Assembly: GCA_963920765.1 (NCBI GenBank)
Contig: OY987249.1
Span: forward strand, 1,676,501-1,740,500
DNA from: Ulota crispa
Taxonomy: Eukaryota > Streptophyta > Bryopsida > Orthotrichales > Orthotrichaceae
Direction: 5' to 3'
DNA: 64,000 nt
Below, in pieces: positions 7,671-63,807 of the stretch (position 1 is its first letter; every line of letters begins with the position of its first letter). The notes below the pieces were generated by a model. That model was not told the DNA's origin. It saw only the letters and a program-made list of their open reading frames with translations, and made no database searches. The position numbers and the translations under genes were made by a program.

Positions 7671-8074
7671 CCCCTGAGTGCCCAAGGGGCCAAAATATGG
7701 CCTCTCTGTTTTGAAAATTATCCACAGTTGACTCTCATCTTCTTCTTAATGGTAAAGTCAAAGGACTTGTACTTTTTCATGTACTTTCAAGCATGTGTCT
7801 ACTACCACTCAAAAAAATTTCAAGCTATTTAACTCTATTTAGGTAATACTTTTATTGGACTAAGGGCCTTCTTCCATGTAAGGGGGGGTGGCCGGTCATT
7901 CTGAAAATACCCCACCAATAATCGGTCGGATGGGGTTCCAATTTTTTTGGACACCTATCCGACCAATTATCGATGGGGTATTTCAAGAATGACCGGCCAC
8001 CCCCCTTGCATGGAAGGAGGCCCTAAATACACAAGGGTATGGATTTGAGTGAATATGACTTGGGCGCTCGGGGG
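7671..8074. mobile_element. TTAA-flanked MITE (subfamily CCCCTGAGTGCCC), with nested insertion
   Basis: The ends CCCCTGAGTGCCC and GGGCGCTCGGGGG are inverted repeats, and each abuts TTAA. A second MITE (7864-8023) lies inside. Without it the element is about 240 bases, close to the size of its relative at 12468-12711. The TTAA target plus CCC...GGG termini fit piggyBac-type elements. Confidence 0.8.
7864..8023. mobile_element. TAA-flanked MITE (GGGCCTTCTTCCATG), PIF/Harbinger-like
   Basis: This is an almost complete palindrome. The arms GGGCCTTCTTCCATGTAAGG and CATGGAAGGAGGCCC continue inward as GGCCGGTCATTCT / AGAATGACCGGCC. It is flanked by TAA on both sides, a typical three-base Harbinger/Tourist target duplication. 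The related copy is 12005-12166. It is inserted inside 7671-8074. Confidence 0.85.
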
Positions 8075-12467: not shown

Positions 12468-12711
12468 CCCTCGAGCACCCAATCGACAGTATATTGTCAA
12501 TGGGCCCACAAACTTTATCTCACTTTTTCTTTTAATTTGTACGGTGAAAACAGTCATGGTTGATCCCATCAGCAAAGAAGGTAATCCTTTTTCAAATCCT
12601 GCGATCAATTTTTTTGAATGTAATTTCCAAGCTATGGTGGCCATTAAACTCCCCAGCCATTAAACTCCCCATTTTCTCTTAAATCTTAAAATAACTCTGG
12701 GCGCTCAAGGG
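12468..12711. mobile_element. TTAA-flanked MITE (subfamily CCCTCGAGCACCC)
   Basis: The ends CCCTCGAGCACCC and GGGCGCTCAAGGG are inverted repeats, each abutting TTAA. At 244 bases it is a short relative of the nested element at 7671-8074. It is non-coding. Confidence 0.8.
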
Positions 12712-18300: not shown

Positions 18301-21212
18301 CGCTGCTGTTCTCATCCGAGCATGTTCTCCAGTGGCAGGTGTGTATTTTGGGGATAGGAGTATTATAGAGAACCCGGCGTTCTATAGTGTATGACACTTA
18401 TAACCAACAACTATTGGCCAAACAAGAAATACTAAGGCACAACACATATACTCAGCTCAAAAGTAATTCCACCACCAAGCGGGACAAACCCTAAGCTTCA
18501 TCTTAGTGGACTTGAATTTTTGATAACTTTTTTTTGACAAAGCCTTAGGCTAATCACTTGAATTGGGAGTTATTGGTTGTAAGTGTCATGCACCATATAG
18601 AATACTAAAGGGGAGAAAGTCCTATCCACAGTATAGAGGACCCTAATGTTTTTATAAAATCCAAATGACAATGAGATCAGCCCCTATGCAAATCGTTTTT
18701 TTGTCAATTTTGTATTAGATCCTAAGCATCTTACCTTATCATAAACCTTACTTAAACTGAAAATCCTGTTTTCTCGTAAATTTTTCATCAGACCTTAAGT
18801 GAAACAATTGTTTCAACTTTATTACAAATCCTATTAACTCTGTTCCTTAAGATTTACGATTTGCAGTATGTGAGGGTTTTCAAAGGATACCTTGAAGCCG
18901 GAAATATCCTGAGTTGTCAAAAACCTAAGCCAAGTTGGGTTCCTCCTTCAGCGCTACTTCAGTACAAAATAGGGAAAATTTCATGGATACTCCTAAAATT
19001 TGCTATATTTGCATAGATACCCCTGCTTTTTCAGAAATTGCACACATACTCTTGGACCATAATTTTTAGGTATTTACTTGTTGTGCTCATACTTCCTCCA
19101 TGACCAACATTGAAGAAGGGAATGTAATGAAACAAAAAAGAAGTAACGCGCGTACAAACGAGGAAGGAAAGTGGCATGCACAACAAAACAAACGCCTGAA
19201 AATTTTGGTCCAAGGGTATTTGTGCAATTTCTGAAAAAGCAGGGGTTTTTATGCAAATATTGCAAACTTCAGGGGTATTCATGAAATTTTCCCTACAAAA
19301 GATTAGCTGTATTTTTTACAGCACTCAGATTTCCTTCTATTTTGCGATATCTGGCACTGATGCTATAAATCCTTCAACTTGCAGGTTTGGCAACAATTCT
19401 GCAACGTCGGAAACAGAGTGCGGTGAAGCCTGTGCTTCTCACAGGACCTGGCAAGGTATGCACAAACGACAGTTGAGTACTTCGGTTTCATTTTAATGAA
19501 GTGCCGAGCTGCTTTACACATTCATACTACTTGGCTTTTATTTTATTACATTCTGTGTACATAATGCAAGCCTCAATATTCAAAGTCTATTTCTGTTGTT
19601 GGAACTGGAAGGTAGGTCAAGCCCTGGGGATAACAACGGACTGGTCGTGTCATCCGCTTTTCTTACCTGGTCAGCATTCTAACCATTGTTAGTATTTATC
19701 CGCTCTTTGTTTTGCCAAGCATTGCGCCTTTAGTACGCACATTCTAAACGCCTGAAAATTATGGTCCAAGGGTATTTGTGCAATTTTTGAAAACTATGGG
19801 TTCTATACAAATATGGCAAACTTTAGGGGTACCCATAAAATTTTCCCATTTTTGTAATAGCTTGTAAACCCGAATAGAAACAGTTACTTTAGCCCTTTCA
19901 GGGTAGAGTTATAATGGGGAAAAAATAGTTATGTCATCCATTAATGTTTCCTTGCTGGAAAAACCTATTTGAAAGGCCATACTCTTCACGAAAACCTTCT
20001 CAATTTGGGGTTGTCAATTTTTTCACTCCCGCTCCATAGTTTGCAGGTTGTTACCATATACAGTAGAACCTCCCTAAACTAATATGGTTGGAATTCCAAG
20101 AATCACATTAATTTAAGTAAGTTATTAGCTAATTTTGTGGAAGTGTAAATGAAGTAATCTTGAAGTTAGTGCCGGGATAGCATTATAGGTAGCTTGGGTT
20201 TTTTATATTATGGCCTTGACATTGAGATTTGTGTTATACATTAGTTTATAGAGCATATTAGTTTAGAGAGGTATTAGTTTAGGGAGGTTCTACTGTAGTG
20301 AGCGTTTCAATTTTCCTTCTTGAAAACTCGAAAATACTAGCCTCTCCTGTAGATATTTGGAACCCAATTCTGTAATTCTCTTATTTCTGTAGGCCAGCTT
20401 TGACGCCCCTAATTTCTGATATTTTTCTTGGGCAACATTTGCAAAGCATTGGAAATTTAGTATAAGGGAATTGATATATGTACCACCCCTTTTCAACTAT
20501 TCTACCACACCTACTATATATGGCCAATATTTACAATATTAAAATAGGTATGAACCACGGGAAAAAAATCACTAATATGAAAATACAACTTCACATAGAA
20601 GTTGCAACTTTAATTTTGTTTTTCAGCACTTGATCCCGCTCATAGAATCAATTAAAAAAGAACTAAACTAAACTAAGCATATTTTGGATGTTTGGATTGA
20701 TACTATGAGCAAAATTTGGAGCTGAAAATAATAATTAAAGTTCAGGTTTCTATGTGAAATTGTATTTTCATATTAGTGATTTTTTGCCTGTGATCCACAC
20801 CTATTTTAATATTGTAAATATTGACCATATATAGTAGGTGTGGTAGAATAGTCAAAACGGGGTGATACAAATATCAATTCCCTTAGTATAATTGGTACGT
20901 AATTAGCGTCTCAGACGGTACACATGTTTCAGTTACTGCCCTGATTGTTGACGTGTGGTAAACTGATATTAGGTCAAAACGATGTGAGCAGGTGGGTTAG
21001 AGATTTTGGATGGTCCCGCACCGGAAGCAATCCTTGCAGGACCCAGAGTGGGCATCGACTATGCAACACCTGAAGATGTGGCAGCTCGATGGCGTTTTGC
21101 TGTGGCAAATACTCCCTGGGTTAGTGCACCCCGTGCTACTTTGCAACCATTTCAATGGTGCTCAAATACAATCTGCACTGATGTTGCAGCTGGTAACCAT
21201 GTGGTTACCTAA
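15390..21212 (+). CDS. Alkyladenine (3-methyladenine) DNA glycosylase
   Basis: This base-excision repair enzyme removes alkylated purines from DNA. Conserved exons are 16746-16922, 17809-17880, 18215-18338, 19385-19455, 19612-19669 and 20992-21212; phases agree at every join and give 240 residues. Family motifs in order are DALDLAPRLLGK; ITE|VEAYR, whose Glu matches human AAG Glu125; ACHARFGQTTR; AYVFLCYGINVMLN; AAVLIRACSP; LLTGPGK|VGQALGIT; and AGPRVGIDYA. A basic, nuclear-style N-terminal exon is proposed at 15390-15603 (MQIRDMDLKG...), but its clear donors are phase 1 while 16746 needs phase 0. So the first join, or the start, is unresolved. Plant relatives usually have GPGG where this reads FRAGG after the fourth junction. 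The C-terminus runs about 19 residues beyond the usual family end. The introns are heavily loaded with MITEs. The plant symbol MAG is commonly used for this family. Confidence 0.9.
15756..16332. mobile_element. Stowaway-like MITE in glycosylase intron
   Basis: The ends CTCCCTCTGTCCCTCTAAAA and TTTTTAGAGGGACAGAGGGAG are inverted repeats with TA on each side, a classic Stowaway (Tc1/mariner) terminus. Inside, a block of about 130-150 bases occurs twice (about 15814-15940 and 15968-16105), sharing ATGCAAAATCTCTAGTTTTG and TTAGGCACCCAAATTCCATG. A 110-codon open frame over this block is a result of the duplication. Confidence 0.88.
17481..17499. repeat. Poly(G) tract
   Basis: A run of 19 G sits in the intron between the second and third conserved glycosylase exons. 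Its length may be unreliable in assembly. Confidence 0.9.
18380..18602. mobile_element. MITE, family ATGACACTTATAACCAACAA (copy 1)
   Basis: The left end TTCTATAGTGTATGACACTT pairs with the right end AAGTGTCATGCACCATATAGAA. The internal block AAAAGTAATTCCACCACCAA recurs on the opposite strand in the copy at 57165-57365. It lies 41 bases after a glycosylase splice donor. Confidence 0.82.
18971..19294. mobile_element. Foldback MITE, family AGGGAAAATTTCATGGATAC (copy 1)
   Basis: The arms are about 120 bases: AGGGAAAATTTCATGGATAC pairs with ATGAAATTTTCCCT, continuing through TTTTTCAGAAATTGCAC / GTGCAATTTCTGAAAAA. Other copies are at 55221-55542 (full) and 19747-19848 (one arm). It lies in a glycosylase intron. 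Confidence 0.85.
19747..19848. mobile_element. Single-arm copy of the AGGGAAAATTTCATGG foldback MITE
   Basis: Only the right arm is present: GCCTGAAAATTATGGTCCAA, then GGGTATTTGTGCAATTTTTG, ending AAAATTTTCCC. It closely follows the full copy at 18971-19294 and was probably left by partial insertion or deletion. It sits in the next intron of the glycosylase gene. Confidence 0.75.
20061..20295. mobile_element. Emigrant/pogo-like MITE in glycosylase intron
   Basis: The termini CAGTAGAACCTCCCTAAACT and AGTTTAGGGAGGTTCTACTG match, flanked by TA on both sides. CAGTARAACCTC termini with a TA target are typical of plant Emigrant elements, which derive from pogo-type Tc1/mariner transposons. At 235 bases it is non-coding. 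Confidence 0.88.
20466..20882. mobile_element. MULE-like MITE, family GGGAATTGATAT (short subfamily)
   Basis: The ends GGGAATTGATATATGTACCA and ATACAAATATCAATTCCC are flanked by the direct repeat TTAGTATAA (nine bases on each side). A nine-base duplication is the Mutator-like hallmark. The core carries TATATATGGCCAATATTTAC on the left and its complement on the right. The closest relative is 50469-50856. Confidence 0.88.
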
Positions 21213-31098: not shown

Positions 31099-32112
31099 CC
31101 CCTAAAGGTCCAAGCCCTTTTTTTTAATGAGAATCACTCAAGACTACCACTTTTGGGGGAATGAGGAGAAATGTAATTTATTATTATTTTTTGAAAATTC
31201 AATCGGAAGATCTTGCCCTAGACTATGGGAGGTACTTGTGGGAAAAAAATCAGCTCATTCTAGTTGTAGAGGAGTAAGATATTGACATCTGAAGTGGGAA
31301 AAAAAAGTTTTTTTCCATGCTGCCCAAAAATTTTAGAAGCCTTTGACGGCTCCTATATCAAAAAAATTGCTCTACGCAAAGCTGAGGTTTATTTTTCCCA
31401 TGTAGAAGACCAAGTTAGGTAAATGTGGGAGAATTTTCAAATGAAACAGAGGTGTGGATCATACTTTGTAAGATCTGAAATGCCGTAAGGTCATGAAATT
31501 TGCATATACACTAGGCAAAATTGAAGGATTTATAAAAATTTCAAAAAAGTGAATTACTTTGATCCAAATGGTGAAAACCAAGGAATCTTAGTCTACTCTC
31601 AAAAAAAAAACAAAAAAAAAAAACAAAAAAACAAAAAAACAAAAAAACAAAAAAACAAAAAAACAAAAAAACAAAGAAAAAAAGAAAAAAAAAAAAAAAA
31701 AAAAAAAACACACAAAGAGCTCAAAAAAGTAAAGCAACAAGTTTTACAAGGGGGAAAAGGAATGGAGGTTTGGGAGTCCCATACCTACTCGCAAACCAAA
31801 ACCTCTCATAACTTTCATCTCATTTATCAAAATTGAATGATTCAAAGCTTCCCAAATATATAAAAATTTAAAGAACCAATTTCAAGATTTTATTTAAAAA
31901 AGTTGCAATATTTTTTTGCTGCTCGATTCTCCCTTGTTTTTTGGATATTCATGCATAACTTCTTCAATAATTGTCGAAATGAAGGAAAAATTAAATTCCC
32001 ACGTAGATCTTATAATTCTCCATCTTCAATAAAAGTTTCAAAAAATCACGCAAAGTAGTTTAGCCATAGGTACCTGCCCAAAATCCCATTTGTCCCGAGG
32101 GGACTTTAGGGG
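31099..32112 (+). mobile_element. TTAA-flanked long MITE (piggyBac-like ends)
   Basis: It starts CCCCTAAAGGTCCAAGCCC (left target TTAT, a decayed TTAA) and ends GGGGACTTTAGGGG followed by TTAA. The shared family phrases are CTACCACTTTTGGGGGAATG, GACTATGGGAGGTACTTGTG, CATGTAGAAGACCAAGTTAG and TTTGATCCAAATGGTGAAAA. It has no transposase; the frames inside come from A-rich tracts. Confidence 0.85.
31598..31708. repeat. A-rich minisatellite (AAAAAAAC)n
   Basis: CAAAAAAA units of eight bases repeat about eight times and end in a pure A run. The array lies inside the element at 31099-32112, at the A-rich site that is much shorter in sister copies. Confidence 0.85.
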
Positions 32113-34815: not shown

Positions 34816-35697
34816 CCCCGAAGCTACCAAGGCCATTTTCTGCCAAAAACCACTCAAAATTGCCCCTATTTCTGCGTTCATCAAAAATTCCAACAAAGTG
34901 ATTTTCTTGTAAATCTAACCATAGGATCTTGTAATGCACTTGTAGAAGAAGTGGTAAAATTTGTGACATTTGACCGCATGGATTGAAAGTTATGAGCATT
35001 TGAAGGGATTTTTTTTTTTTTTTTCCATGGACCTCAAAAATTTCAGATGGCTTTGACCGCCATTTGCTTATTATTTTTGCTCTACCAACCGTGAATCTAT
35101 AATTTTCTTTTATAGGTAATCAAGTTAGACCTTTGTACACCAATTTTCAAGGCAATCAAAGACACGGAACACATCCTAAAAAATATTGCAATGCCACTAT
35201 ATGACAAGTTTTGCAAATACACTACAGCATTTTTGAGTGAAGTTTTTCACCACGTGTTTTTAGATATGGAAAATCCAAACGGTTCATTTGAAGATGAACA
35301 TGTACTTCAAATGTTAAAAAAAAAAAGTTAAAAAACTCAAAATCTCTAAAATTTAGAAGCTCTCAAAGCCCAATCTGACCTCCTAATTGGAAATGAAAGG
35401 GGGCAATTATGAATTATTGGGAACCACCAAAGCAACATGTGGCAACCCCTCCTTGCTCCCTCCCCTCCAAAGCCAATATTTTTCCCTTGCCCAAACTGCC
35501 CCTCGAATTGCTTTTGGCCAAAAAAAGCCCATAACTTGTGAATCGTGTGACATAATTACATGATTTTTTGCATCTACAAACATTATACATTCCTATACAC
35601 CTATAAAAAGTTTTTAAAAATTATGTCAAAAATTGAGGTCACACGAGCCTACCCAAAATCCCAAAAGTTCCCCAAAGGGACTTTGGTCCTTTAGGGG
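34816..35697 (+). mobile_element. TTAA-flanked long MITE
   Basis: It has TTAA then CCCCGAAGCTACCAAGGCC at the left, and GGACTTTGGTCCTTTAGGGG then TTAA at the right. The internal order matches 31099-32112 but sequence divergence is greater. The right TTAA (35698-35701) is also the left flank of the next element. Confidence 0.82.
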
Positions 35698-35701
35698 TTA
35701 A

Positions 35702-35945
35702 CCCATGAAAGGCCCTTTGGCTCTGGAGCTATGGTACCAAATACGATTGTAACCAATATTTAGAAGTTTGAATCAGCTAGAAATTAAGTGTTACAACCAT
35801 ACATATTGAAGGATTGTATGATGGTCAATGCATTGTTTTTTTGTTTGAAAAACCCTCAAAGCATCTCAAATACGTCTGTACCTGTACATATGGCCATACA
35901 TACGGCCGTACATACGGCCGTAAAGAGCTTTCATGCGTTTAGGGG
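35702..35945. mobile_element. Short TTAA-flanked MITE (CCCATGAAAGGCCC)
   Basis: It is 244 bases, between TTAA at 35698 and TTAA at 35946, and ends GCGTTTAGGGG. The body phrase GGTACCAAATACGATTGTAA is shared with 53860-54083. Confidence 0.78.
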
Positions 35946-35949
35946 TTAA

Positions 35950-36183
35950 TCCTTAAAGGACAAGGCTACCATACTACATACTATGTACGCTGCTGTATAA
36001 CTGCCATTTGCTACCAACAAAAAGTTTTAATTTGGGATCTTGACTACCTCACTAGAACAACATTGATCTATATTCTAACTTCTTTGTTGAACTCAAATGT
36101 AATAAAAGTGTGGATGCACTCCAAATACAAGAAAAATACATCGTATTGTATTGGTCGCAAAGAGCTGCCTCGTCCTTTAGGGG
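35950..36183. mobile_element. Short TTAA-flanked MITE (TCCTTAAAGGACAAGGC)
   Basis: It starts after the TTAA at 35946 and ends CGTCCTTTAGGGG followed by TTAA. It is the third member of the chain 34816-36183, in which neighbouring elements share a single TTAA. Confidence 0.75.
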
Positions 36184-37669: not shown

Positions 37670-37673
37670 TTAA

Positions 37674-38597
37674 CCCCTAAAGGACCAATGAAGCCCTTTT
37701 TTCTTCCAAAATTATTGAAAACTGCCACTTCTAGGAGATTTAGTAAAAAGGGATTTTATGTTTTCTTTTTGGATAATCCAATCATAGGATCTTGTCCCAG
37801 ACTAGAAGAGGTACTTGTGGGAAAAAAAGCAGCTCGTTCCAAATGGAGATGAGTGAGATATTCACATCTAAAGTGAAAAAAAAAAATTCCATGCTGCCCA
37901 AAAATTTTAGAAGCCTTTGACCACTCTTATAACAAAAAAATTGCTCTACCCAAAGTTGCGCTTTATTTTTTCCATGTAGGAGATCAAGTTAGGTATGTGT
38001 GGGAGAACTTTCAAATCAATTGGAACTTTACAAGATATGTGAAAAAATAGTAAGTAAAAAGAAGTAGAGAATGAGTCAAAACACTAAATTGTTAAGAATT
38101 TAATTATGGAAATGAAAAATGCTAATCCCAACGGTGATAATGTTGTGATAAACAATTTTCTTCCTTTGGTTTAATATTTTTTCCAAAATATTGAAAACTG
38201 AGTAAAATAAAGGACTTCAAAGTTTATTTTAGAGGAGAGATTCCATAATTGCTTGCAAACAAAAACTCCTCATAACTTTCAAGTCCTTGATTGAAATTGA
38301 ATGATTCAAAGCTTCTCATGAGTAAAAAAGTCTAAAGAACCAATTTCAAATTTGCATTTAAAAATAAAGTAATTTTAAAAAAGTTTTAGGGCTGCCCAGA
38401 CGGGCAGTCATCCCCAAATGTTCATAAATTCATGCATAACTTCTTTGTCAAATATCAGAATGAAAAAAACTAGATGCCCAAGTAGATCTTTGGATTCCTC
38501 ATCTTAAATAAAAGTTTCAGAAAATCACACAAAGTAGTTTAGCCATAAGTACGTGCCCAAAGTCCAACCTATCCCTGAGACAACGGTCCTTTTGGGG
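37674..38597 (+). mobile_element. TTAA-flanked long MITE
   Basis: It has TTAA, CCCCTAAAGGACCAATGAAG at the left and CGGTCCTTTTGGGG, TTAA at the right. It shares its left TTAA with the end of 36605-37669. Its right half matches the inverted remnant at 51900-52478 closely. Confidence 0.85.
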
Positions 38598-41993: not shown

Positions 41994-42344
41994 TCCCTAA
42001 ATGCTCAACTGACCATTTTCTGGTCGATACCCTTTTTGTGGGCTGCCCAAAATGAAAAAATATATTTTTTGAAAAATAAAAAATATTTTCATGTAGGAAA
42101 GCAAGTCTACTTTCCAACCCAATTTGAATCATGTCAATCCAAGTTGAACTCCACCAAGTAGAAATTTTCAAAGACAAACACTTCAATATTTGCTAGTATT
42201 TCAAAATTTTACTATTTTGGGAAACTAATGATGTTCTCTCCATCAAAAATATTGCATTTTTTAACTTTCAAATAGAATGTCTATTTTTAGCCAATCATAC
42301 CAAATTTTAAACTTTGTGAATAATTTTTTGAATTTTAATGAATA
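41994..42344 (+). mobile_element. Left-end remnant of TTAA-flanked family
   Basis: TTAA then TCCCTAAATGCTCAACTGACC starts a family-like copy. No matching right end occurs before the next element, which begins at the TTAA at 42345. It is a truncated or interrupted copy. Confidence 0.5.
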
Positions 42345-42348
42345 TTAA

Positions 42349-43138
42349 CCCCTAAAGGACCATGGCCTTTATTTTGTCAAAAAACACTCAAAACTGCCAT
42401 CTCTATGGCAAAGAGTAAAAAGGTTTGAAAATAAGGCATTTTGCATATCGAACTGTAGGATCTTGTGCTAGACTACTATAAGAATGTGTCATACAAAACT
42501 CAAGAAGTTTGACCTCACAAATTGGAAGATATATGCATTTAAAGTGCAAAAAAATACTTTTTTTGCACCTTGCTTGACTAGATTATTTAACTTTGAACAT
42601 TTTTAACTTAAATTTTTGCACCACAAAGTTCGGAATTCTATTTTTGCATGGTGGGAAGTTGAGTTGGGAATCTTGGGAAATTAAAAAAATATATACTTAG
42701 TTTTCATTCTTTAAAAAAACATTTGGTAGAAGAAGGTATGAAATTGAACAAAAACTTAAATTGCTAATAACCTTACAATGGAATTGAAATGCAATAATCC
42801 TGATACTAAGATTGTCCATAACTTTCTCATAATTAGTCCAAATGGAATGAATCAAAGCTTCAGATGTAGACAAAGATATAATCTATTAGAAAAATTAATT
42901 ATTTAAAAAAAAAAGTTTTTATAAGAATTTTTTTTGCTGCCCCTAGTCCCCAATTTTGTGCTTATTTGGGCATAACTTTTGCTCCCTGGCATCAATTGGA
43001 ATAAAAAATATATTCCCCAAAAGCTAATGTGTTTTTCTAAATTCAAACAAATTTCAAGAAATTACGAAAAAAATTGAGGCCGTAGATACCTACCCAAAAT
43101 CCCATTTGTCCCCCGTAGGAACAATGGTCCTTTAGGGG
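42349..43138 (+). mobile_element. TTAA-flanked long MITE
   Basis: It has TTAA, CCCCTAAAGGACCATGGCC at the left and CAATGGTCCTTTAGGGG, TTAA at the right, with both targets intact. The internal order (ACTGCCATCTCTATGGC ... CTACCCAAAATCCCATTTG) matches the family. Confidence 0.87.
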
Positions 43139-43905: not shown

Positions 43906-44851
43906 CCCGTAAAGGACCAAGGGTGTTTTTTGAGAAAAGATCTCAGAAACTGCCAACTTTTAGTGCATTGTCCAAAATTGAAATTAAGAACCTTTTTTCT
44001 CAATTTCAACCCTACAAAAGTTTGCAAAACATATAAAATAATATGTGCAAAAAAATTCAGCTCATTTGACCATGGGATTGTAAGATTATAATGTTTGAAG
44101 TGAGAAAAACTACTTTTCTTTATTCCTGTAAAACAAGGTCAACAAACTTTCACCCTTCCTAGATTAAATTTTTTGCTATACACAAATTTGAGCCTTTTGT
44201 CCCTAAACAAGCATATGATGTTAGGTTCACTCACAAAAAATTTCAGATGCAAAAATACAATCTAGTTTGTTCAAAATTATCCTCCAATGCAAGGAGATTT
44301 AGAGAATTGGCAATACATTAGTCATTCTTTCATGATTTCTTGTGCAATGAGGAAGTCTTTTATTTGAAATCTGAATAGTAAAAAATTAGAGGCAAACATT
44401 TGAAATATATGAAAAAAAGTTTGAAGAGCTTTGGATCTATAGATTGAAAGATAACATGGCTTGAAGTTAGAGGATTTTTTTTTTCTTGAAACTGCCCAAA
44501 CATAGTTAACTAAGTTTGACTCCCTTCAAAATGTGATGTGAGAGCTCTATTTTTTAAAAAAAAACTGGACAATTGTACACCATGTTTTATCAGTAACATA
44601 CTTGCCAAATTTCAAAAGTTGATGAAAGTTTTAGCATAAGATTCTCCAAAGATGCCCAAACTGCCCAATTCTTTTGGGCAACATAACTTTTGAACTAGGC
44701 ATCTGATTGGCAAAAAAATCACATTTCCACTTAGGGAATACTTATCCACACCTTTTGTAACAATTTTGAGAACATCCAATAAAAATTGACTCCATAAGAC
44801 CCTACCCAAGTCCTCAAGTGGCCGTTGAACAGCTTCGTGGTCCTTTAGGGG
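43906..44851 (+). mobile_element. TTAA-flanked long MITE
   Basis: It has TTAA, CCCGTAAAGGACCAAGGGTG at the left and CGTGGTCCTTTAGGGG, TTAA at the right. The body is clearly diverged from other copies, so this may be an older insertion or a separate subfamily. Confidence 0.85.
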
Positions 44852-44912
44852 TTAAACATGCAAAGTTCTTTTTCCCTGTTTTTAACAACTTTTGTTTGTA
44901 TACTTATGCTTA

Positions 44913-46151
44913 GGGAATTGATATGTGTACCACACCCTTTAAACTACTGTACCACACCCCCGGGGTAAATTTTAGATTTCTACCATCAAAAAGCTAAATT
45001 TGAGATTTTGGAATTCAGATTTGGACTTAGAGACCATGATTTAGTCTAGAACCATAAAAAATAGTTGCAATTCAACAACATCCAATGAAAAAGTTTAACT
45101 AGAGAGAAACGTGTTACTTTTACTTTTGTTTGTAAAAAAAAATAAGCTTTTTCATTGGGTGTTACTGAATTGCAACTTTTTTGATGGTTCTAGACTAAAT
45201 CATGGTCTCTAAGGGTAGTTGCAAGAAACACCTCACAATTTTGTCTCAAAATGCCTCTTTTTGGGTGTAATACTAGCAGTGCTACCAGTATTATAAGTAC
45301 TACACAACATCCTCATACTGAAAATCTGAATCTATTGAAAATGAGGCACGTGGCATGTCATTTAGGAAGGCCAAGTATCAATAATGGCAATTCAATGAAT
45401 GGATGAAAAAAAAATTCAGATCCTCAAAAGATGTTAGTGGTCAGTGGTACTACGTAGTGCCAGTAAATGGAGGGGAGTACTACATAGGCATGTGGACAAG
45501 AAATTACTAGAATTTCTAGGCTGCCATGTTTTAATTCTTAGTAATTACAAAAGAACCAAAAAAAATAAAACAAGAATTGGCCATTTGTGGCCTCCTTGAT
45601 TTGCTTGAAATGTTGAACGTACTTTTTCTAGGAAGATTTTTATCTATCACCTAGGCAGGGAGATAGGATGCCCACTTTGAGAGAACGTGCAAGGCATAGA
45701 ATTTTGAGATTTGCAAAATCGGTCTACAAATTTGTGTAATGATGCCTCCTAAATCACTACCCTAATTTGTGGCCAAAAATTTGCATTTTTTGACCCAATG
45801 TAGTACTGAAAACCCCCAAAACAGCAAAAGTAGACAAATTATCTAAAACCCAAAAAAAATACTACAATAATTTTAAAAAATACTTAAAAATCAGGGAATG
45901 TCTGCAACTTTGATGTTCATGTTGTCCTAAAATTTCAGGTGAAAAGGTCTTTTGAAGCAAAAGATACAACACTAAAACATGATGTCAAGGTAGTAGGGGG
46001 AAAAATGTAGTACACGCGTTTCTTGCAATCACCCCTAAGTCCAAATCTGAATTCCAAAATCTCACATTTAACTTTTTGATGGTAGAAATCTAAAATTCAC
46101 CTAGGGGTGTGGTACAGTAGTTCAAAGGGTCTGGTACACATATCAATTCCC
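44913..46151. mobile_element. MULE-like MITE, family GGGAATTGATAT, with nested insertion
   Basis: The termini GGGAATTGATATGTGTACCA and TGGTACACATATCAATTCCC pair. It is flanked by CTTATGCTTA and CTTATGTTTA, a ten-base duplication with one difference. An 822-base element (45213-46034) splits the right arm; without it the element is about 417 bases, the family norm. Confidence 0.88.
45213..46034. mobile_element. MITE, family GGGTGATTGCAAGAAACAC (copy 2), nested
   Basis: The ends GGGTAGTTGCAAGAAACACC and GCGTTTCTTGCAATCACCC pair. It is flanked by CTAA on both sides, and the host phrase GGTCTCTAAG/TCCAAATC is restored when it is removed. The body matches 4829-5557. Confidence 0.85.
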
Positions 46152-46161
46152 TTATGTTTAA

Positions 46162-47449
46162 ACCCTACAGGCCCAAGTGGTCCCTTGGGGGCCAAATGGG
46201 TTTTTGCGCATGTACTTACAGCTAAACTATTTTATGTGATTTTTGAAACTTTTATTGAAGGTAAGGAATTAAAAGATATACCTAGGCATCTAACTTTCTC
46301 TTTGTTTTGACATTTATTGAAGAATTTATGCATGAATAACTGAAAAACATGGGAGAAGCGAGCATGCCAAAAAAAAAGTTTGCGTTTATTTTGAATAAAA
46401 TCTTGAAACTGGTTCTTTAGATTTTTACATATGTGGGAAGCTTTGGATCATTCAATTTTTGGTTGATGAGATGAAAGTTATGAGAAGTGTTAGTTTGCGG
46501 GTAGGTATGGGACTCCCAAACCTCCATTCCTTTTTCCCCTTGTAAAATTTGGTGCTTTACCTTTTTGAGCTCTTTGTGTATTTGTTTTATGACTATTTTT
46601 TTTCTTAAGTTGTAGGAGACTAAGATTCCTTGGTTTTCACCATTTGGATCAAAGTAATTCAAATTTCTGAATTTTACATAAATCCTCCAATTTTGCCTAG
46701 TGTATACAGTGGTGCTTGGTTAGCGTCAACACTTTGGGCTAGTAAAAAGTGTTGACCTTATCCAAGCATTGATCATAAACAAACACTCCATTTGTGTTAC
46801 TTTCCCTAGTTCTAAGGGTTGCAATCTTGGAGATGCTTTCTCACCCATGTTTTTAGTATACTAACCAAACGCCTTTCTAACTAAGGAGTCAAAATGGGAA
46901 TTGATGAAATGAAAACGTTGACCATATGCAAGCACTTGACCTTAACCAAGCTCATAAGACATGCTTTTGAGCAAAACGGGAGTGGGGTTGTGATCTTATC
47001 CAAATGTTGCTCTTACAAAGGTTGACGCTAACCGAGCACCATTGTATACAAATTTCATGGCCTTACAGCGTTGCAAGATTTTACAAAGTATGATTCACAC
47101 CTCCAATTCATTTGAAAATTTTCCCACACTTACCTAACTTGGTCGTCTACATGGGAAATTAAAAACGTCAATTTTGCGTAGAATAGTTTTTTTTATATAG
47201 AGGTGGTCAAAGGCTTCTAAAATTTTTGGGCAACAACAAAAAAACTTGTTTTTCACTTCAAATGTCAATATCTCACTCCTTTACATCTAGAATGATTTGA
47301 TTTTTTTCCCACAAATATGTCCCATAATCTAAGGCAAAATCTTATGGTTGGATTTCTGAAAAAAACTTTTTTCCTACCCATCTACTTATTCCCCAAAAAG
47401 TGGCAGTTTTCAGTGAAATTCACAGAAAAAGGGCTTGGGCGTTTAGGGG
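46162..47449 (-). mobile_element. TTAA-family long MITE, inverted, with nested insertion
   Basis: The element reads on the minus strand. Its CAGTTTTCAGTG, AAAGGGCTTGGGCGTTTAGG end lies at the right (flank TCAA) and its other end CCCTACAGGCCCAAG at the left, after TTAA. A TA-flanked MITE (46707-47044) sits inside. Confidence 0.8.
46707..47044. mobile_element. TA-flanked MITE with CAGTGGTGCTTGG ends, nested
   Basis: CAGTGGTGCTTGGTTAGCGT pairs with CGCTAACCGAGCACCATTG, flanked by TATA on each side. CAGTG termini with a TA target suggest the pogo/Tigger branch of Tc1/mariner. The host phrase CTAGTGTATA/CAAATTTC is restored on removal. Confidence 0.85.
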
Positions 47450-48377: not shown

Positions 48378-49023
48378 CCCCTCACCGCCCATGGTATTTT
48401 TGAGTATCTCATATTTTGCTTTAAAGTGGATAAAATGCTGGCATTTTGACCAATTTTATCAATTTTCTTTAAAGCGCAACCATACAAATTTAAAGTAGAC
48501 ATGTTATAGATCACATAGGAAATGAAATCACAACAATATCACTTGTGGATTGAAAGATTATAATGTTTGATCATGAGGGTGTTAAAACTGCAAAAGTGAT
48601 TTGAAGTCTTTCAATCCTTTTTTTGCATCTCAAACCTAAGATTAAGGGTACCAAAAAATTACAAGTGTGTAAAGTATAACATGTATAAGCCCAATCACTT
48701 TACGGCTTCTCAAAATCTATTCTACAAATTTTTAAACTGAATTTTTAGTGTGATTTTTTCTCCAAGATCTAGTGTACTTGAGGCTCATTTCCAAGAGCCT
48801 TCAACACTAGAAAGTGAAGATTTACAATGGACACCCTTGCACAAAATCTTGAATAGACAAATCACTTTAATTCATTTTCAAAATCAAGACTCCTAATGTT
48901 GAAACTAGACTTCAATAGGAATTTTAAAATTAAAAAAATCACTAAAAAAATCTTGAAAAAATGTCACGCATCTCTAAATAAAATTCAGAGAGGCCCAATT
49001 TGGGCCCGTTGGGCGGTGAGGGG
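48378..49023 (+). mobile_element. TTAA-flanked MITE of subfamily 2
   Basis: It has TTAA, CCCCTCACCGCCCATGG at the left and CCGTTGGGCGGTGAGGGG, TTAA at the right, giving a good inverted pair. The body matches 36605-37669 without the GC-rich insert. Confidence 0.87.
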
Positions 49024-49263: not shown

Positions 49264-49498
49264 TTAAATAATTATTGGGTTTATCATTTGCAGCATAACA
49301 AGCTATTGTAATGCCTTTGTGTGTAACAAATGCAACTTCAACATAATTATGCGGTTTTAGCACTATGCAATTGTTTTAACAACAGTATGGTTATGGTTAA
49401 GGTTGTGATTGCCAAAACTTGCAAATATGTATTTACAACTCTTGTATTTTTAAGGGATCCTTACAATTTCCAAAAATCAAGGACATCCATCAAAATAA

Positions 49499-49946
49499 GG
49501 AATTGATATGTGTACCACACCCTTTGAACTATTGTACCACACCCTTTGAACTATTGTACCACACCCTTTGAACTATTGTACCACACCCTAGGGTAAATTT
49601 TAGATTTTTACCATCAAAACATTGAATTTGAAAATTTGGAGTTCAGATTTGGACTTAGAGACCTTGAATTAGTCTAGAACCATTGAAAAAGTTGCAATTC
49701 AACAGCATCCAATGAAAAAGTTTAGCTAGGGAGAAAAGTATTACTTTTTCTTTTGTTTGTAAAAAAAGATAAGCTTTTTCATTGAGTGTTGTTGAATTGC
49801 ATTTTATTAATGGTTCTAGACTAAATCATGGTCTCTAAGCCCCAATTTGAATTCCAAATTCTCAACTTTTGATGATAAAAATCTAAAATTTACCCTGAGA
49901 TGTGGTACAATACGTAGTTCAAAGGGTGTGGTACACATATCAATGC
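49499..49946. mobile_element. MULE-like MITE, family GGGAATTGATAT
   Basis: The foldback arms GGAATTGATATGTGTACCAC and GTGGTACACATATCAATG pair and are flanked by CCATCAAAATAA on both sides (12-base direct repeat, 49487-49498 and 49947-49958). The phrase ACCCTTTGAACTATTGTACC is present three times in tandem at the left end. Confidence 0.88.
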
Positions 49947-50468
49947 CCATCAAAATAATGCAGAATACAGAGGCATCTATTACATTTTCCCATAATCATA
50001 CTGTAGCTTGGAGAGCTGTCCAAGCATGCACGAGTTTGCGTTCATTTTTATTTTATTCTATAATTTTTAAAGGAAATCCTTTGTTTTAGAGTTTTGGAAT
50101 GGCACAAATAACATACCTGGTACTGGTGCCACATCTGCAAAGATATATTGCAAAAGTATTGATATTTTGAGGAAGAAGGCGTGAAACAGGTCGAAGTGAC
50201 ACTGCTTTGAAAGGAGGTGGTGAGTCACCAGCTTCAGAATCCTTGAAATCTGGAACTCACACAATGGACAGGGTTTTTGTGTGCGATACCATACTACGAG
50301 TGACAAGATTGGCAAAGAAAAAACCAAAAACCAAACAACCAAAACACTCAAAGACCAATAAAGAATAAAATAAACTCATATTCCAACTAGGATGGGAATT
50401 ACTATTTTCAGAAATAAAACAAATTCTGAAGAAATAAGAATTTGCAAAACGATTATGATTTTGATATG

Positions 50469-61050: not shown

Positions 61051-61465
61051 TATGTTATTATTGAGTTTTTGAAAAAAAAAATGAACTATTTTTTATCTGG
61101 TAGTTCAAACACACTCCAGAATGCAGGCCCTGGGGTCACACACTCCAAGACCAAAGCTTGTCACCATTCATTTAAAATCAGGTCAACTATTTCTCTGAAG
61201 CCCAGTGCCAGTACTGAGTATTGTTGTCGGTAGGCACATATGCTAGTTTAGTGTTTGGGAAGAACAAGCATTTAGTGAACTGTCAGTCAGTTGAAACTGC
61301 AAAAACACCCGTTGAATTTTGAAACTAAGGTAAGTACCCAAATCCAATCATGTACCTAACGGCGTCCATATGTACACAACATGGTCATTTTACAACCTAA
61401 ATCTAGATAAGTCACATATAACTTATCTTTTGTTACGTACACAAGGTGGTCATTTTACAAATTAA

Positions 61466-62397
61466 CCTTTAAAGGATTATTGTCTTTTTGGAGGAAAAAT
61501 AGGATTTTGGGCATGTATCTATAGCTAAACTACTTTGTGTGATTTTTGAAACTTTTATGGAAGACGGGGAATTCAAAGATCTATGAAGGCATCTTATTTT
61601 TTCTTCATTTTGACATTTATTGAAAAAGTTGTGCATAAATTTCTAAAAAACAAGGGAGGGCGTGCAGCCCAAAAATTTCTTTAATTTTTTTGTTTTTTTA
61701 AGACATAATTCTAAAAATTCATTCTTTAGGTTTATATGTATGTGGGAAGCTTTGAGTCATCCAACTTTGATTGATGAGTGAGAAGTTTTTGTTTGCGGGT
61801 AGGTATGGGACTCCCAAACCTCCATTCCTTTTGCCCCTTGTAAAATTTGGTCCTTTACATTTTTGAGCTCTTTGTGTTCTTTTTTTAACTTTTTTTTCCC
61901 AAGTTGTAAAAGACTAAGATTCCATGGTTTTCACCATTTGGATCAAAGTAATTCAAATTTCTGAATTTTACATAAATCCTCCAATTTTGTCAAGTGTATA
62001 TTCAAATTTCATGATTTTATGGCATTGCAATATTTTACAGATTATGATTCATACATCCACTTTGTTTGGAAATTCTCTCACACTTACCTAACTTGGTCTT
62101 CAACTTGGAAAAAATGAACCTCAACCTTGAGTAGAGCAATTTTTTTGATGTAGGAGCCGTCAAAGGCTTCTGGAATTTTTGGGCAACTAGGGAAAAAACA
62201 TTTTTTCACTTCAGATGTCAATATCTCAATCCTCTACATCTAGAATGAGCTAGTTTTTTTTCCAACAGGTACCTCCTGCAATTTAGGGCAAGATCTTATG
62301 GTTGGATTTCTAAAAAAAACTTTTTTTCCCACCTTTCTACTCATTCCTCCAAAAGTGGCAGTTTCAATATCTTTCACAAAAAAAATGGCTTGATCCT
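61466..62397 (-). mobile_element. TTAA-flanked long MITE, inverted
   Basis: The left flank TTAA is followed by CCTTTAAAGGATTATTG. On the right AATGGCTTGATCC meets the TTAA at 62398. The body is the reverse complement of the family order. It lies head to head with the next element; its outermost right bases are missing at the join. Confidence 0.83.
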
Positions 62398-62401
62398 TTA
62401 A

Positions 62402-63318
62402 CCCCTAAAGGACCAAGCCCTTTTTTCAGTGAAAGTTATTGAAAACTGCCACTTTTGGGGGAATGAGTACAAAGATAGGAAAAACAATTATTTTTGGAAA
62501 TCCAACCATAAGATGTTGCCCTAGACTATGGGAGGTAATTGTGGGAAAAAAATTAGCTCATTCTAGATATAGAGGAGTGAGATATTGACTTTTGAAGTGA
62601 AAAAAAAAGTTTTTTTCTTTGCTGCCCAAAAATTTCAGAAGCCTTTGATTGCCTCTAAATAAAAAAAAATGCTCTACGCAAATGTGAGGTTTATTTTTCC
62701 CATGTAGAAGACCAAGTTAGGTAAGTGTGGGAGAATTTTTAAATGAATTGGAGGTGTGAATCATATTTTGTAAAATCCTGCAATGCCATAAGGCCATCAA
62801 ATTTGCATATATACTAGGCAAAATTGGAGGATTTATGTAAAATTGTGAAATGTGAATTGCTTTGATCCAAATGATGAAAACCAAGGAATCTTAGTCTACT
62901 ACAGCAAGGAAAAAAAAAAGTCAAAAAACAAATTCACAAAGAGCACAAAAAGTATAGCACCAAAGGCAAAAGGAATGGAAGTATGGGAGTTCCGTACCTA
63001 CCCGCAAACTAAAACTTTTCAATCATAAGTTGGAATTGAATGATTCAAAGCTCCCCACATATGTATAAATCTAAAGAACCAATTTCAGATTTTTATTTTT
63101 AGAAAAGTTTTTAGCTGCCCAATCTCCACCTTTTTGCAGATTTTCATGCATAATTTCTTCAATAAATGTCATAATGAAGAAAAAATTAGATGCCCACGTA
63201 GGTTTTTGAATTCCTCATCTTCCATAAAAGTTTCAAAAAATCATGCAAAATAGTTTAGTTGTAAGTACATGCCCAAAATCCCAATTGTCCCCCGAGGGGA
63301 CAGTTGGTCCTTTAGGGG
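62402..63318 (+). mobile_element. TTAA-flanked long MITE (best-preserved copy)
   Basis: It has TTAA, CCCCTAAAGGACCAAGCCC at the left and CAGTTGGTCCTTTAGGGG, TTAA at the right. At 917 bases with clean ends and both TTAA targets, it is the best reference copy in the window. It contains no transposase or other protein-coding frame. Confidence 0.9.
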
Positions 63319-63807
63319 TTAAGGATTAAATCTAAATCAGTCACATGTAGTTTATCTTTTGTGTCACAAAAGGTAAGCTATCTATGACTTACTTAGATTA
63401 AGTTGTAAAATGACCACCTTGTGTACATACAAACGCTATTTAGGTGAACTTGCCTTTCTTGATAAAAGAACCGATCAAAATTCTTAAATTTTGTATAGTG
63501 TGTTATGATATAAATATTGGAAATATATTGCGCATGCCTGTGATAAATCAATTAAAAATGGAAAATGACTAGTTTTAACTGGTGAAACTTTTGAATTCTC
63601 CCCAAATAGAATGTTCATATGTATTACTAGTGTACGGACACACACTTTGAGCAAATTGGAGATGTACTAGCAATGCAGCATTCAACTTTATAGAATATCA
63701 ATATCTCACAAATCAATTGGTCTAATATCTAATCTTGATGTACTTTACAAAAATTAGTATTTCACAACTAGTTTAGAATTTAAGTAATTTTGATGCATCA
63801 TTGTTAA

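Follow-up and report, generated by a model that had tools for sequence, protein, structure and literature searches.

Which class of transposase stands behind the short, TTAA-bounded elements that recur in the window, i.e. the whole stretch of 64,000 nucleotides of Ulota crispa DNA analysed here? The question is asked of the element at 62402-63318, which starts with CCCCTAAAGGACCAAGCCC and terminates in the reverse complement of CCCCTAAAGGACCAACTG. We consider it very highly probable that this element and its kin are non-autonomous miniature elements (MITEs) that arose by internal deletion from piggyBac-superfamily DNA transposons and were mobilised by a piggyBac-type transposase.

TTAA-bounded elements of the window

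TTAA on both sides of nine elements had been reported in the initial annotation, and exact TTAA directly outside both ends, together with a CCC start on both strands, was indeed present in 9/9 of them (Table 1). A CCC start agrees with piggyBac termini, for which CCCT or CCCTTT is given as common in passages of PMC12732532. Ends matching TTAACCC[CT]TNANNGNCC with at most two mismatches numbered 39 in the window; the reversed sequence had 4, and each of 20 mononucleotide shuffles had 0-4. Several end types were found among them (AAAGGACC, GAGTGCCC, CACCGCCC and AAATGCCC-like): CCCCTAAAGGACC-like ends occur on both sides of elements 37674, 42349, 43906 and 62402 and on one side of 34816, CCCCTGAGTGCCC-like ends in 7671 and 12468, CCCCTCACCGCCC ends in 48378, and mixed CCCATGAAAGGCC / CCCCTAAACGCAT ends in 35702. 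Given these end types, what had been annotated as one TTAA/CCC transposon family is a group of several related piggyBac families with a common end motif; the piggyBac part of that proposal stood, the single family did not. In keeping with the annotated lack of a transposase in the window, no piggyBac transposase (PF13843) match was located inside it among the 116 of 528 genome candidates scored.

The element 62402-63318 interrupts an older relative within the latter's terminal repeat; where it used TTAA, the usual end of the family reads TTAG. Neighbouring elements often have one TTAA in common (window cases at 35698-35701 and 37670-37673), and the TTAA at 35946-35949 is probably common to 35702-35945 and another element ending at 36183.

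Table 1. Elements of the window and one transposase-bearing relative, with their ends and flanks.
Position	Strand	Description	Flanking sites
62402..63318	.	MITE, CCCCTAAAGGACCA family, 917 bp	TTAA at 62398-62401 and 63319-63322
61466..63325 (about)	.	Older decayed relative, 62402 family, interrupted by 62402-63318	Own TTAA at 61462-61465 and 63326-63329
7671..8074	.	MITE, CCCCTGAGTGCCC-type ends	TTAA on both sides
12468..12711	.	MITE, CCCTTGAGCGCCC-type ends	TTAA on both sides
31099..32112	.	MITE, same family as 62402	Left TTAT, right TTAA
34816..35697	.	Element	TTAA on both sides; 35698-35701 common with 35702-35945
35702..35945	.	MITE	TTAA on both sides; 35698-35701 common with 34816-35697
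37674..38597	.	MITE, CCCCTAAAGGACC type	TTAA on both sides; 37670-37673 common with end of another element to the left
42349..43138	.	MITE, CCCCTAAAGGACC type	TTAA on both sides
43906..44851	.	MITE, ends CCCGTAAAGGACC / CCCCTAAAGGACC	TTAA on both sides
46162..47449	.	Decayed copy, same family as 62402	TTAA and TTGA
48378..49023	.	MITE, CCCCTCACCGCCC ends	TTAA on both sides
L082, C1:661100-668450		7.2 kb element	Exact TTAACCCCTAAAGGACCA at both ends

Copies across the genome

The assembly comprises 275 Mb in 157 contigs. At least 43 matches to 62402-63318 were obtained with 40 scored of 9408 first-look candidates; among the matches listed, 40 rows (the window copy included) covered nearly the full length at 90-100% identity, and a further 3 reached 79-81%. 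Exact CCCCTAAAGGACCA ends occurred 8876 times genome-wide, and 7555 of these (85.1%) had TTAA in front (TTAACCCCTAAAGGACCA), with reversed controls giving 0. The corresponding figures were 3235/3868 (83.6%; controls 0) for CCCCTAAATGCCCA ends and 570/635 (89.8%; controls 2 without and 0 with TTAA) for CCCCTCACCGCCCA ends. The share of positions that begin a TTAA was 0.7% for the window and 0.4% for the fetched loci. Most exact ends of all three types are therefore TTAA-bounded, as the genome-wide check proposed in the initial annotation anticipated, and about 15% have no TTAA in front. At two ends per element, the exact AAAGGACCA ends amount to an estimated 4400 or so element equivalents, a count that excludes mismatched ends.

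Twenty copies were fetched, the 20 best after the window's own, and their flanks were read with a 2-base shift allowed for end indels. Both sides were TTAA in 16/20, and one side had a changed base in the remaining 4/20. Divergence from the majority, calculated for these copies and the window copy (n = 21), averaged 2.3% (range 1.1-3.4%) in what is a sample of top hits biased to young copies. With that bias towards young copies, the mean divergence suggests that the MITE burst was fairly recent.

A very short version of 71 bp with CCCCTAAATGCCCA ends also recurs; the first 100 places listed include five pairs of such ends (e.g. G000:C1:241516-241586). The element-TTAA-element junction TGGTCCTTTAGGGGTTAACCCCTAAA was counted 101 times, at about 98 separate places, against a rough expectation of 20-50; from this excess, the elements may preferentially insert into TTAA sites of copies already present.

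Transposase genes and their link to the MITEs

PF13843 (DDE_Tnp_1_7) had at least 120 matches in the genome (116 of 528 candidates scored; best E 1.3e-73) and none in any of 14 control genomes. Stop codons interrupt 110/120 match rows. An open frame of 476 aa at L083 matched PF13843 at 8e-60 and, among solved transposases, piggyBac (6x67, E 4e-20) and piggyBat (9c0f, E 6e-17). Twenty sampled transposase domains, read through stops, showed pairwise identities of 26-80% (median 34%) and formed nine groups when linked at >50% identity. In these 20 domains, most of them from broken copies, the first aspartate motif had D in 18 and N in 2, the second was found in 14 (D in 11, N in 3), and the third was recovered in 20/20 with one substitution allowed. 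The three catalytic aspartates of piggyBac are assigned to these motifs.

Kolobok and Sola3 likewise prefer and duplicate TTAA, and on target choice either of these superfamilies could have given rise to the elements. Such an origin is very unlikely, as elements with these ends encode a DDE_Tnp_1_7 domain, whose solved relatives are piggyBac and piggyBat, and the ends are CCC, as in piggyBac. The assignment to the piggyBac superfamily made in the initial annotation was thus borne out: the longer relatives found with the same termini encode a PF13843 transposase rather than one of another class.

A transposase gene with shared termini, which had been suggested as a further check, is carried by three elements of 7-9 kb (L082, L025 and L075). 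L082 matches the MITE right end over its left 198 bp (84% identity) and the MITE left end over its right 537 bp (74%), with a decayed transposase in the interior that is 57-59% identical to L025 in three main pieces. Its two ends also matched the window element 31099-32112, at 86% over 170 bp and 76% over 531 bp. L025 (8.8 kb) and L075 (8.0 kb) are ordered as MITE right end at the 5' side, transposase, and MITE left end at the 3' side, with TTAA outside; their 5' ends match the MITE right end over 182 bp at 88% and 202 bp at 79%, respectively. Compared with the 7-9 kb elements, the left ~560 bp of 62402-63318 represent their 3' end and the right ~200 bp their 5' end. Since transposase elements carry the MITE right end at 5' and the left end at 3', 62402-63318 is, judged by its sequence, an internally deleted piggyBac derivative. 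It also belongs to a group that is short, without transposase, high in copy number and equipped with termini common to a transposase-bearing element, as expected of MITEs.

The MITE left half, continuing to the terminus and TTAA, was recovered at five distinct loci (L082, L025 = L070, L071, L074 and L075). At each of them it has the orientation of the transposase match and lies 1.3-1.9 kb downstream of it. Among 13 loci compared (L070-L081 and L026), it extended to the terminus in four, namely L070 (the L025 place), L071, L074 and L075; L026 had its inner part at the border of the fetched stretch, and within the stretch fetched it was not seen in the other eight. At L071 no matching 5' end was seen within the stretch fetched.

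Nesting is common, as illustrated by 62402-63318 inside an older copy and by the approximately 98 element-TTAA-element junctions, and unrelated piggyBac copies might by chance have inserted into MITEs, which would make the shared termini accidental. This explanation has next to no probability given that in L082, L025 and L075 the matching 5' and 3' ends each lie on the correct side and are bounded by TTAA, that five distinct loci, L071 and L074 included, have this 3' end in common downstream of transposase DNA that is homologous between them, and that the stretches between the coding part and the end align between copies (e.g. L025 vs L071).

Under the preferred derivation from piggyBac, internal deletion would leave ~200 bp of the 5' end and ~560 bp of the 3' end, with the CCCCTAAAGGACC terminal repeat kept. 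A piggyBac-type transposase supplied by full-length elements elsewhere in the genome would act on the MITEs in trans, cutting them out and pasting them into TTAA, which would thereby be duplicated. The origin of the elements and their choice of target are evident at the sequence level; action in trans and the cut-and-paste chemistry we infer from insect piggyBac.

The ends of the transposase elements are only 71-88% identical to the MITE while the MITEs are young, which suggests that the direct partner of the recent burst is missing from the elements examined; the matches listed yielded no element that combined MITE ends with an intact transposase. Two further candidates for a long parent were rejected: L052, with 5.1 kb between two exact ends, matched neither the MITE nor the transposases (13 queries), and L053 (3.4 kb) has MITE-like ends and no transposase match (13 transposase queries). 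L013 and L021 had no window match, and L016 matched other repeats; none of these three had a tie to the window MITEs.

Other transposase regions have other end types of the same motif. L009 and L018 are 5.0 kb transposase elements, 90% identical over 5059 aligned columns in an alignment with 14 and 30 bases doubled at the seams of joined stretches. They stop at TTAA-type edges, one of the four being TTCA, with ends CCCCTCATCGCC / CCCCTCATTGCC and CCCTTCATTGCC. L014 is a transposase element of 5.1 kb with ends CCCTTGACCGCCC and CCCTTCACCGCC, and L022 has CCCCTAAATGCCC ends on either side and flanks TTAA and TCAA, the boundaries of both being drawn from a single copy. The end type of window element 48378-49023 is close to that of the 5 kb elements L009, L014 and L018.

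Three side observations concern these regions. In the long elements an upstream reading frame, far 5' of the transposase domain, shows ~40% protein conservation (L082:1263-1835, L091:2274-2879) and is present in the L075 and L071 elements too; by eye it is acidic and serine-rich. It gave no Pfam match (4 pieces, E up to 5) and only chance-level hits to solved structures (2 pieces, best E 0.38 and 1.1), and it may be the first exon of the transposase or a second gene. The L009 region contains a palindromic element of 726 bp with TTAA flanks (C3:13128829-13129554), in which the MITE right half is present in both orientations; it is a fold-back derivative with two 5' ends. A repeat family that is palindromic, with self-matches in either orientation, occurs at window positions 49493-49953, 44911-45213, 2437-2760 and 20465-20511 and in the L022 and L025 regions; it has ends like TTTACCCCGGGGTGTGGTA, adjoins two transposase genes and is not of the TTAA-CCC type.

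Target duplication, known systems and the host

Joined flanks of 29 sites (9 window elements and 20 copies) were searched against the fetched sequence, and a comparator spanning the junction was found for 3/29. The joined flanks of L034 aligned ungapped to L004 and to window 38137-38291, and those of L041 and L043 had no gap at the junction with window 42078-42197 and with L068, respectively. In a fourth comparison, found by eye, the joined flanks of 62402-63318 aligned ungapped to its own family's end. The comparators read TTGA (L034), TTGG (L041), TTAA (L043) and TTAG (62402) at the target. All four comparisons fit a duplicated 4-bp target of which one copy is present at the empty site; the target read exactly TTAA in 1/4.

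These alignments bear on a PIF/Harbinger (Tourist-like) origin, in which a 3-bp TWA duplication would look like TTAA through an A/T at the element edge. Tourist MITEs are described as common in plants, with TTA/TAA duplicated, in parts of PMC10004981. In the empty-site comparisons, taking out exactly four bases gave ungapped alignments of the joined flanks, i.e. a four-base rather than a 3-bp target. TTAA is a palindrome and by itself cannot separate 3-bp from 4-bp duplication, which limits this comparison; the class of transposase encoded by the long relatives carries more weight. Given the piggyBac transposases of long relatives that share these termini, and the four-base targets, we rejected the PIF/Harbinger origin as extremely improbable. 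Tourist and Stowaway MITEs of angiosperms resemble the elements described here in being short and numerous and in having terminal inverted repeats; they belong to PIF/Harbinger and Tc1/mariner, whereas the present elements are piggyBac with TTAA. TTAA-flanked MITEs of plants, as a warning, need not be Tourist-like.

With the piggyBac superfamily (IFP2 of Trichoplusia ni, structure 6x67) the moss elements share TTAA as target and duplication, CCC...GGG termini, and the domain family of the transposase; aspartate motifs can be made out in most, though not all, of the 20 sampled domains. Seamless excision, by which TTAA is restored, and a cysteine-rich domain at the C-terminus of the transposase also characterise the superfamily. 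They differ from IFP2 in their host, a moss, and in that many transposase lineages live side by side, as the 26-80% identity of the 20 sampled domains indicates. Non-autonomous, TTAA-flanked piggyBac MITEs are also known from insects (e.g. Helicoverpa), again a different host, and the superfamily is known mainly from animals. Six elements here measure 5.0-8.8 kb (nested repeats included), compared with 2.1-3.5 kb for piggyBac of beetles in passages of PMC12732532.

The label PiggyBac already exists in plants, being attached to 1230 copies in a fern repeat table (PMC6890710) and listed with the MITE superfamilies of angiosperms (PMC10004981) and with the DNA transposon superfamilies of plants (PMC10794571). 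In a search of titles and abstracts, with most subscription papers outside it, no paper on piggyBac elements native to land plants was found, and we make no claim to a first report. The addition made here is a chain, traced in sequence, from a TTAA-bounded MITE to a transposase-bearing parent in one plant genome, on which we found no paper. A moss genome in which thousands of TTAA-bounded ends occur together with transposase genes and long elements, and in which MITE and parent are linked in sequence, also offers plant piggyBac lineages for comparison with the animal tool. Tentatively, the moss lineage may have hosted a long, home-grown piggyBac radiation, with about nine transposase lineages in 20 sampled copies, some unusually large forms of 7-9 kb with a further conserved upstream coding stretch that may be a second gene, thousands of MITEs, some of them recent, and a tendency to target the TTAA of copies already in place; we regard this wider picture as possible rather than likely.

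The host is photosynthetic, as the assembly contains intact plastid photosystem I genes: on contig 157, two reading frames of 740 and 750 aa that belong to the PsaA/PsaB family are intact. One of them is PsaB, with best PDB chains 7ksq, 6l35 and 8htu (1681 bits), which we take to be photosystem I of the moss Physcomitrium, and with next sequences at 1643 and 1603. Nuclear contigs additionally contain many short psaA/psaB-like fragments, some without stops, which look like plastid DNA transferred to the nucleus.
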